Shown here: in pieces, positions 20,287 through 22,849 of the stretch | Position numbering within the stretch: position 1 is the first letter of the stretch | How the letters are laid out: every line of letters begins with the position of its first letter | Origin: Chitinophagaceae bacterium | GTDB taxonomy: Bacteria; Bacteroidota; Bacteroidia; Chitinophagales; Chitinophagaceae | Reading direction: 5' to 3' | Length of the DNA stretch: 64,000 bases | NCBI GenBank assembly: GCA_004028795.1 | Contig: SAIW01000023.1 | Location: forward strand, 1-64,000 | Position numbers and translations under genes: made by a program | Notes under the pieces: generated by a model | What the model was told of the DNA's origin: nothing | Seen by the model: only the letters and a program-made list of their open reading frames with translations | The model's database searches: none

Positions 20287-20925
20287 ATGTTTTCCTCAAT
20301 AGCCGACATCAGAAAAGATTATAGCCTGCAAACTTTAACCGAAGCAGATGTTGCTTCAAACCCTTTCACTCAATTTACAAAATGGTGGAATGAAGCTATT
20401 GAAAGCAAAATAGAAGAAGTGAATGCTTTTACTTTGGCAACTATTTCAAAAGAAAATAAACCCTCTGCCCGTATTGTATTATTAAAAGGATATAACGAAA
20501 ACGGCTTTGTTTTTTTTACCAATTACAACAGCAATAAAGGAAATAACTTAGCTGTAAACCCAAATGCTGCTATGCTTTTCTTTTGGAAAGAATTGGAAAG
20601 ACAAGTAAGGATTGAAGGAACTGCTGAAAAAATAAGTGAAAAAGAAAGTGAAGAATATTTTCATTCCCGCCCAATCGGCAGCCAAATTGGTGCATGGGCA
20701 AGCCCCCAAAGTAAAGTAATAGCAAACAGAAGTATTTTAGAAGCTAATGAAACTCAATACAAACAACAGTTTGGGGAAAATGTACCGAAGCCTCCGCATT
20801 GGGGTGGCTATATTATAAAACCTGTTTTATTTGAATTTTGGCAGGGAAGAAGCAGCCGTTTACACGATAGAATTCAATACACATCGGAAAATAATAACTG
20901 GAAAATTGAGAGGTTAGCCCCTTAA
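20287..20925 (+). CDS. pdxH: pyridoxine/pyridoxamine 5'-phosphate oxidase
   Basis: FMN-dependent oxidation of PNP or PMP to pyridoxal 5'-phosphate, the last step of vitamin B6 synthesis and salvage. 212 residues, the usual length. Conserved FMN-binding ARIVLLKGYNENGFVFFTNY and RPIGSQIGAWAS are present, and the C-terminal EFWQGRSSRLHDRI segment binds FMN and substrate in the family. It has its own promoter-like element 13 bases upstream. The long gap after it (20926-21301) contains a structured region. Confidence 0.96.
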   Translation: MFSSIADIRKDYSLQTLTEADVASNPFTQFTKWWNEAIESKIEEVNAFTLATISKENKPSARIVLLKGYNENGFVFFTNYNSNKGNNLAVNPNAAMLFFWKELERQVRIEGTAEKISEKESEEYFHSRPIGSQIGAWASPQSKVIANRSILEANETQYKQQFGENVPKPPHWGGYIIKPVLFEFWQGRSSRLHDRIQYTSENNNWKIERLAP

Positions 20926-20929
20926 TTAA

Positions 20930-21301
20930 ATTTTTATTACAAAAAACTTAACAAATTGTTTTGATGTAATAAAAGTTTTTCTATCTTGCACACCGCAAAT
21001 AAAAAAGGTCCACTGTAGAAACAGCCGACCTCTAACGATTGCTTGCCATATGAAAAAAAGTTCTTTCGGATTTGAGAGCTAATCATTTCTGACTAACTTT
21101 TCTCGATTTTAAGGCCTCTACGATTGCCATATTTCTCTTCTAACGATTGCCTTGCCATCTACTTTACTTCCTAATACGATGTAAAAGTAGTACGGCGTTT
21201 CTAACAGTTAAAAACAAGTTGTAGCCTTTTTTATCATGCCAAAACTGTTTTGAAAATGTAAAACCCTTGCCGGTATTACACTTCAGCTAAAAACGCCTAT
21301 C
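20930..21301 (+). ncRNA. structured intergenic region with direct repeats: candidate small RNA or long leader
   Basis: The 376-base gap between pdxH and the helical protein gene has no plausible coding frame but has ordered features. A hairpin with arms GGTC/CTGT and ACAG/GACC lies at 21007-21030. Three near-repeats TCTAACGATTGC(C)TTGCCAT are at 21031-21050, 21117-21131 (shortened) and 21139-21158. A stem CTACTTTAC with GTAAAAGTAG spans 21159-21190, and a T6 run at 21221-21230 follows a GGC/GCC pairing. A TATCTTG element sits near 20983. It may be an independent RNA or the leader of the gene at 21302. Boundaries are my estimate. Confidence 0.4.
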
Positions 21302-22849
21302 ATGTCCAACCGATTTTCAGATACATTATTTCAATTGATTCACTCCTTAGAAAAGGCGGAAAAGCGGCATTTTAAGCTTTATATCAAGCGTAGTTCTGCA
21401 AAAGAAGACCTGAAAATTGTTCAATTATTCGATGCTTTGGATAAAATGGAAGAGTATGATGAAAGTTTATTGCTTAAAAAACTTCCTTCTATAACTAAAC
21501 CTCAATTAGCTAATTTAAAAAACCATTTATATAAGCAGGTACTCGCAAGCCTTCGTTTGCTTAAAGCAACCAATACAATTGATTTGCAGCTTACAGAAAA
21601 TTTAGATAATGCCCGTATTCTTTACAATAAAGGTTTAAAAGGTCAGGCATTAAGAATTCTGGAAAAGGCGAAGGAGTTGGCATTGGCTAATCAGAAATTT
21701 AATTTTTTGGTTCAGGCATTATCATTAGAAAAAAAAATAGAAACACTTCATATTACACGCAGCACCACTGAAAAAACAGAAAAGCTTGCAGAGCAGGCAA
21801 TGCAGATTAGCGGGCATGTGTATCGTGTAACCAAGTTATCAAATCTGGCATTGTTGTTATATCGCTGGTATGTAATTCATGGGCATGCAAGAAATGAAGA
21901 AGATGAAAAGGATATTAAAGCCTATTTTAAAAATCAATTACCGAGAGATTTACATGCAGTAAACGGCTTTTATGAAGAACTATACTTATATCAAAGCTAT
22001 TGCTGGTATGCTTTTATACGTCAGGATTTTTTAATGTATTACCGGTACAGCCAAAAATGGGTTGATGTTTTTGCACAACACCCGGTAATGATTAATGTTG
22101 AAACAGGCCATTACATAAAAGGGTTACACACATTATTAAATGCCCACTTTGATTTAAGAAATTTTGCAGAGTTTGATAAAGCATTACAACAGTTTGAAGA
22201 TTTTGAAAAAACACCTGTTGCTCAGCAACATGATAATTTCAGAACACATACATCCATTTATATAAACAGTGCAAAAATTAACGGCTATATAATGAAAGGC
22301 CAATTTGCTGAAGGATGTAAATTAGTTCCGCACATAGAAGAAAAGCTAAGTAAGTATGCTTTGTTTGTTGACAGGCACCGCATTTTGGTATTTACTTACA
22401 AGTTTGCACAATTGTATTTCGGTAAAGGTGATTATGATAAAGCCATTGATTATTTAATGCAGATAATTAACGGACCGATTGATTTACGTATTGATTTACA
22501 GTCTTACGCAAGATTGTTGCATTTGATGGCTCATTATGAATTAGGTAATTACGATTTAATGGAATCGTTGGTTAAATCGGTTTATCGTTTTATGGCTAAG
22601 ATGAAAAACCTGACAGTTGTAGAAGAAGAAATTTTAAAGTTTGTAAAAACATCTTTCACTGTTAATGCAAGGCAACTAAAACCGGAATTGGAGAAACTAC
22701 TTTCAAAAATTAAACACTTAGAAAAGAGCCGTTTTGAAACAAGGGCTTTTGCTTATTTAGATGTTATATCATGGTTAGAAAGCAAAGTAAGTAATAAACC
22801 TATGAGCGTAATTATTCACGATAAATACTTAAAGAGTAAAAGAAAATAA
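21302..22849 (+). CDS. conserved helical-repeat protein of unknown function
   Basis: 515 residues, no signal peptide and no membrane segment. Composition and periodicity indicate nearly all-alpha structure with paired helices resembling TPR-type repeats, e.g. about 105-160 (LYNKGLKGQALRILEKAKEL) and 330-420 (AQLYFGKGDYDKAIDYLMQ, a good TPR-like unit). No catalytic motif is visible. I do not recognise a named family; it resembles hypothetical proteins of Chitinophagaceae. A long structured region precedes it. It is convergent with the pectate lyase gene, which ends 1 base later. A scaffold role is plausible but unproved. Confidence 0.7.
   Translation: MSNRFSDTLFQLIHSLEKAEKRHFKLYIKRSSAKEDLKIVQLFDALDKMEEYDESLLLKKLPSITKPQLANLKNHLYKQVLASLRLLKATNTIDLQLTENLDNARILYNKGLKGQALRILEKAKELALANQKFNFLVQALSLEKKIETLHITRSTTEKTEKLAEQAMQISGHVYRVTKLSNLALLLYRWYVIHGHARNEEDEKDIKAYFKNQLPRDLHAVNGFYEELYLYQSYCWYAFIRQDFLMYYRYSQKWVDVFAQHPVMINVETGHYIKGLHTLLNAHFDLRNFAEFDKALQQFEDFEKTPVAQQHDNFRTHTSIYINSAKINGYIMKGQFAEGCKLVPHIEEKLSKYALFVDRHRILVFTYKFAQLYFGKGDYDKAIDYLMQIINGPIDLRIDLQSYARLLHLMAHYELGNYDLMESLVKSVYRFMAKMKNLTVVEEEILKFVKTSFTVNARQLKPELEKLLSKIKHLEKSRFETRAFAYLDVISWLESKVSNKPMSVIIHDKYLKSKRK

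Follow-up and report, generated by a model that had tools for sequence, protein, structure and literature searches.

The 376-nt gap (20926–21301) that separates a pdxH-type gene from an open reading frame of 515 aa in this Chitinophagaceae genome probably contains, on its minus strand, the gene of a small RNA (sRNA); this sRNA would belong to a family-wide, multicopy set, probably acts in trans, and may have an RRM-type protein as its partner. Positions are those of the window, that is, the whole stretch of 64,000 nucleotides analysed. A housekeeping-type promoter of its own would drive the synthesis of an RNA of about 180 nt, which would run in the direction away from the divergent gene of a predicted helical protein and end at an intrinsic terminator facing pdxH. 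It would be one of 1–10 paralogues per genome in most of the sampled Chitinophagaceae, with a near-invariant 3′ module, joined by further copies of a motif upstream, as its working part. By acting on other RNAs it would help control other genes, presumably together with an RRM-type RNA-binding protein, in genomes that lack a recognisable Hfq; control would be shared with the helical gene through elements conserved between both starts. The features are, by position:

20287–20925, plus strand: gene of pdxH type, its direction converging with that of the sRNA gene (Pfam domains PNPOx_N, PNP_phzG_C)
20928–20978, no strand: A+T-rich inverted repeat, lying between pdxH and the sRNA gene that converges on it (repeat search)
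20999–21176, minus strand: predicted gene of an sRNA of about 180 nt (ends inferred, the 5′ one from the -7 box and the 3′ one from the T-run; module match at 20999–21080)
20999–21080, minus strand: conserved 3′ module, about 82 nt (model R1; E 2.5e-14 in own genome; no variation at 16 columns of the 86-copy alignment)
21001–21030, minus strand: intrinsic terminator hairpin and T-run (9 pairs, 5 of them changed on both sides; 97.3% of cells paired)
21029–21049, minus strand: motif copy 3, ATGGCAAGCAATCGTTAGAGG, near-invariant (sequence reading)
21113–21130, minus strand: motif copy 2, shortened (sequence reading)
21139–21158, minus strand: motif copy 1, carrying an additional G (sequence reading)
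21181–21189, minus strand: -7 promoter box TACTTTTAC, Bacteroidota-type (conservation at a nearly fixed place across loci)
21205–21217, minus strand: tentative -33 region, T-rich, TTGTTTTTAACTG (position only)
21231–21244, minus strand: conserved upstream element TTTTGGCATGATAA (nearly fixed place in 68 of 79 loci, at most 4 mismatches)
21260–21269, minus strand: conserved upstream element CAAGGGTTTT (AAGGGTTT nearly fixed in 68 of 79 loci, at most 2 mismatches)
21302–22849, plus strand: divergent gene of a 515-aa protein, predicted to be all-helical and TPR-like (open reading frame, structure model, profile match)

Anatomy and polarity of the gap

A sequence-only reading had described the gap as non-coding and structured, and had suggested that it may be either a small RNA or a long, regulated leader belonging to the gene of the helical protein. 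Non-coding it is, as no open reading frame of at least 50 aa overlaps 20926–21301, the transcribed stretch included; tRNA and tmRNA genes were sought throughout the window and none was found. The inverted repeat at 20928–20978 is real, and is possibly the terminator of pdxH. Two of the three repeat copies then counted are exact (TCTAACGATTGC at 21031–21042 and 21139–21150), while the third, at 21113–21130, is shortened. The 12-nt repeat alone is mildly unusual, a repeat of equal length being present in 18 of 1,000 dinucleotide shuffles of the gap; it is conservation (see below) which indicates that the feature is not due to chance. The gap also folds better than its shuffled versions, with a z of -4.75 on the minus and -3.28 on the plus strand, and none of 100 shuffles was as good on either strand.

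A longer stem (21030–21001) had also been pointed out and is present, but the T-run follows it on the minus-strand reading alone; similarly, the promoter-like element exists, but the box backed by conservation lies on the minus strand. As the T-run of the stem and the conserved promoter box are both minus-strand features, the parts of the gap have the reverse of the polarity that a leader would need for the gene downstream. Read 5′ to 3′ on that strand, the order is CAAGGGTTTT, TTTTGGCATGATAA, the tentative -33 region, the -7 box, two imperfect motif copies, a variable stretch, a U-rich stretch, the perfect motif copy, the terminator, and the T-run.

The motif GGCAAGCAAUCGUUAGAGG thus occurs three times in the window RNA, perfectly at the 3′ end and imperfectly at the two upstream positions. 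At least one upstream copy is present in 51 of the 53 longer RNAs aligned (thinned by eye from 87 stretches in which the -7 pattern was found), and upstream copies are less conserved than the 3′ copy. For the module alignment, 86 of 106 selected stretches were kept; those discarded, as judged by eye, were near-duplicates, one degenerate copy, and stretches in which an upstream motif had been taken for the 3′ motif, and four further stretches had failed the T-run pattern beforehand. In this alignment the terminator has a covariation score of 0.396; shuffles give 0.219, and none of 500 reaches the observed score. Slid versions of the structure do not exceed 0.204, and over these the scored structure is favoured because it was derived from the same alignment. 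In predicted folds the motif is only moderately unpaired, with a mean of 0.62 over the 53 RNAs versus 0.49 for whole RNAs; the value of the window copy is 0.52.

Promoter and conserved upstream elements

Of the 79 module-bearing loci chosen by the helical protein (see below), 70 have a TA..TTT box at a distance of 124–132 nt from the start analysed, compared to 2 of 79 for a control stretch of equal width; in the other nine loci it is absent at the expected place. The form of the box in the window, TACTTTTAC, is close to the TAnnTTTG box which a study on Flavobacterium reports (PMC9723704). From this conserved -7 box the sRNA is predicted to have its own promoter. Farther upstream, elements resembling TTTGGCATGATAA keep a nearly fixed place in 68 of the 79 loci, and the TTTTGGCATGATAA element is a possible activator site. 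That both box and upstream elements are found at nearly fixed places suggests one regulatory region which may serve both divergent genes, that of the sRNA and that of the helical protein.

Distribution and copy number

A BLAST search with the gap against 59 genomes, own included, gave matches in 30 of them. Most of the strong matches span positions 72–132 of the query (20997–21057 of the window), a segment that many genomes contain several times over, here and there in tandem, with units approximately 390–520 nt apart. In the loci read, box, motif, hairpin, and T-run follow one another on the strand complementary to the query, which makes the feature a unit of the minus strand. With the covariance model R1, matches at E 0.001 were obtained in 101 of 147 Chitinophagaceae genomes; conservation beyond close strains, on which the sequence-only reading had made its interpretation depend, is therefore evident. 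RNA-positive genomes have 1–10 copies, two being the commonest number (34 genomes), and the 46 family genomes without an R1 match indicate that the RNA is not essential to the family. Together with the promoter box, the reiterated motif, and the covarying terminator, this family-wide conservation and the multiple copies per genome argue for the small RNA among the two options first considered.

Outside the family, two marginal matches were obtained. In a sample of the order, 16 of 149 genomes gave an R1 match, 15 of them within the family and the other (G202) marginal at E 9.8e-4; in a sample of the phylum it was 6 of 198, five within the family, and both searches used stricter filters by which weak matches are lost. 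The sixth match of the phylum sample (in G304) is marginal as well (E 7.7e-4), and the motif pattern, when looked for in it, was not found. A search of viral contigs for exact matches of 24 nt returned none. At gathering score, Rfam release 15 (4227 families) has no match for the window or for five further loci scanned (L188, L186, L195, L201, L126); at E up to 1, eight sub-threshold matches were obtained for six loci, none of them overlapping the module. A known RNA family was rejected on the ground that no scanned locus matches Rfam. As a search of a literature collection for the motif string, or for work on sRNAs in Chitinophagaceae, found no description either, the sRNA family is apparently undescribed so far; since release 15 lacks a match for the loci tested, it would deserve an Rfam entry if confirmed.

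Genomic neighbourhood of the copies

Of 174 loci, the best 80 by similarity to the helical protein were chosen. In 79 of these the module is present upstream of the helical gene on the opposite strand, that is, divergent from it, at a distance of 175–668 nt (median 210) from the start codon; in the remaining locus (L080) the helical gene is present and the module absent. A further 81 distinct copies are found in other loci, a number which includes one degenerate copy and the G304 match; 42 of them adjoin the start of a helical gene and 39 do not. This arrangement bears on the alternative that the gap is a long plus-strand 5′ leader of the helical mRNA with regulatory hairpins. In favour of a leader, the upstream elements keep a constant distance from the start of the gene, and the plus strand also folds better than its shuffles (z -3.28), but terminator and -7 box have the wrong polarity, module and terminator face away from the gene in 79 of 80 loci, and 39 copies have no adjoining helical gene; such a leader was rejected on polarity and on these separate copies, and is very unlikely.

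Eleven of the 39 dispersed copies have retained, about 120 nt before the -7 box, a remnant resembling a helical start, so that they probably arose by duplication of the canonical locus. In four of the 39 (L002, L028, L147, L201) the module is located 22–48 nt after an open reading frame of 60–64 aa that is lipoprotein-like; the second copy in the window's own genome (L002; G000:C6:29035–29117) is of this type. The lipoprotein-like frames, from four genomes, are rich in Asp, Thr, and Ser, and the divergent open reading frame upstream in L002 and L201 resembles an ECF sigma factor.

Copies both dispersed and in tandem, together with the helical-start remnants in 11 of 39 dispersed copies, are also what a selfish or passively spreading repeat (REP- or MITE-like), carrying a terminator by accident, might leave behind. 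Such a repeat would, however, hardly keep to one syntenic position in 79 of 80 loci, nor combine a low copy number with a preserved promoter and a motif that is near-invariant family-wide beside variable sequence; we consider this origin very unlikely, and the copies are better taken as paralogous sRNA genes.

The divergent helical protein

The 515-aa protein has no match in Pfam. Its structure was modelled from 42 aligned sequences (41 of the 80 proteins from the loci, plus the one encoded in the window) as all helical, with a pLDDT of 85.1 and a pTM of 0.76, which supersedes a poor fold from the single sequence (pLDDT 41.7). The model aligns best with Rap TPR proteins, at Z 21.4 and an rmsd of 4.3 over 309 residues, but as LGN scores Z 18.9 the ranking among TPR proteins means little; a Foldseek search with the model found nothing within an E of 0.001. 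The NCBIfam profile BT_2802_fam matches over the full length (residues 6–504, E 4.9e-44). With 151 bits compared to a curated cut-off of 550 the protein is not a member of BT_2802_fam by that model; judged by the profile match, it is a distant relative. BT2802 itself we take to be RusR. For RusR, a role as regulator of the ribose operon BT2803–2809 has been described (PMC12596196).

Relatives of the helical protein are encoded in 115 of the 147 family genomes and in 101 of the 149 genomes of the order sample, where the RNA was found in 16; the protein is thus more widespread than the RNA. Being frequent in the order sample where the RNA is rare, it was rejected as an obligate partner of the RNA. 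In some genomes from other families of the order (such as G043, G186, and G265) the protein family is expanded to at least 10 scored copies. One genome (G007) has two helical paralogues, each with an RNA copy upstream, in which the motif has ATA instead of ATG; the window's own genome has a second helical paralogue as well (G000:C7:376978–378516, 55% identity), and on contig C7 no R1 match was reported.

Coding potential and targets of the motif

The motif contains a frame of five codons (MASNR), whose ATG and stop are kept in 141 of 155 motif copies. Conceivably, the peptide is bound as a ligand by the divergent TPR protein, the model of which has Rap peptide receptors as best structural match (Z 21.4). 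Against this, the third codon positions are as frozen as the others, the ATG has been lost in 8 of the 155 copies, just 8 of 71 upstream copies have ATGGC, and another TPR protein (LGN, 18.9) scores nearly as high as Rap. Frozen third positions and the rarity of ATGGC upstream favour a constraint at the level of the RNA; a coding five-codon frame was rejected for want of a codon-position substitution pattern and for the few upstream ATGGC, and a peptide ligand is highly improbable.

No target was found in the window's own genome, where a perfect complement to 15 nt of the motif is confined to the two RNA loci, and a long complementary target was rejected on this ground. With up to three mismatches allowed, 103 complement sites are present in this genome versus 56 for the reversed pattern, and pairing with targets may be imperfect. 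Among 28 of these sites that were examined (one of them, L156, could not be placed), three (L159, L166, L171) are in sense near a start, which may be chance. Of 98 family genomes, 66 contain the exact 14-mer, and none of the matches listed is to the control.

Relation to known small RNAs of Bacteroidota

To our knowledge, post-transcriptional control has been little studied in Bacteroidota outside Bacteroides. A near-frozen multicopy RNA that is present in most of the sampled genomes and anchored at one syntenic locus would give a direct handle on RNA regulation in Chitinophagaceae. The closest parallel is the FopS–RbpB system of Bacteroides thetaiotaomicron which, as described, comprises multicopy paralogous sRNAs with a housekeeping-type promoter and a Rho-independent terminator, one of them derived from a 3′ UTR, and an RRM-type partner (PMC11697453). 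The two share multicopy paralogues in Bacteroidota, a predicted housekeeping-type promoter, a conserved segment with a terminator, and, it would seem, a member derived from a 3′ UTR, while an RRM partner is here suggested by co-occurrence; by this analogy the Chitinophagaceae sRNA may work like FopS. The seed of FopS, however, is at its 5′ end, whereas the frozen motif described here abuts the 3′ terminator, and FopS is found in Bacteroidaceae with 12–15 copies in the species named (PMC11697453), compared to 1–10 in Chitinophagaceae. As the conserved segment is at the other end, and as the likeness is one of description, membership in the FopS family is not claimed. Rfp18 of Flavobacterium, described as a single, genus-wide sRNA which pairs through a stem-loop (PMC9723704), was likewise compared by description; like the Chitinophagaceae sRNA it is conserved across a lineage of Bacteroidota, but it is not described as multicopy.

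Candidate protein partner

Hfq does not exceed the Pfam cut-off in any of the 147 family genomes, which yielded three weak sub-threshold matches, with the control giving a signal in 5 of 14 genomes; Hfq was rejected as partner on that count. Proteins with an RRM_1 domain, on the other hand, are encoded in 135 of the 147 genomes, in all 101 that are RNA-positive versus 34 of the 46 that are RNA-negative (Fisher p 2.9e-7 by a test which ignores descent). For genomes of 3–5 Mb the mean number of RRM proteins is 3.31 in RNA-positive (n = 59) and 1.52 in RNA-negative ones (n = 23), but within RNA-positive genomes the number of RNA copies follows genome size (rho 0.56) more closely than RRM count (rho 0.34). 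An RRM protein as partner is, by this co-occurrence, a lead and not a finding.

CsrB/RsmY-type RNAs titrate the protein CsrA, whose motif is GGA in hairpin loops, and by analogy the RNA might act mainly as a sponge, its repeated motif titrating an RNA-binding protein, without pairing to any mRNA. The likeness consists in a short motif repeated within one RNA (in 51 of 53 here); unlike GGA, it is about 19 nt long and moderately unpaired in predicted folds. A sponge would also agree with the motif being nearly frozen across genera, with the lack of a long conserved complement in the own genome, and with the RRM association, but many dispersed copies, as seen by reading, have the 3′ motif copy alone; we consider it unlikely, and still prefer an sRNA that acts in trans on other RNAs. 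A more elaborate scenario, speculative and doubtful as a whole, would be a family-specific RNA circuit of Bacteroidota, with the multicopy RNA capturing an RRM-type global RNA-binding protein through the reiterated, near-invariant GGCAAGCAAUCGUUAGAGG, the ancestral gene being controlled with the divergent TPR regulator from one shared operator, and the lipoprotein mRNA having borrowed the module as its 3′ end. In one genome (G010, locus L208 on G010:C18) three RNA copies stand in tandem, and approximately 2 kb separate this array from the gene of an RRM protein, a proximity which is taken as chance; the open reading frame between them resembles MurA.
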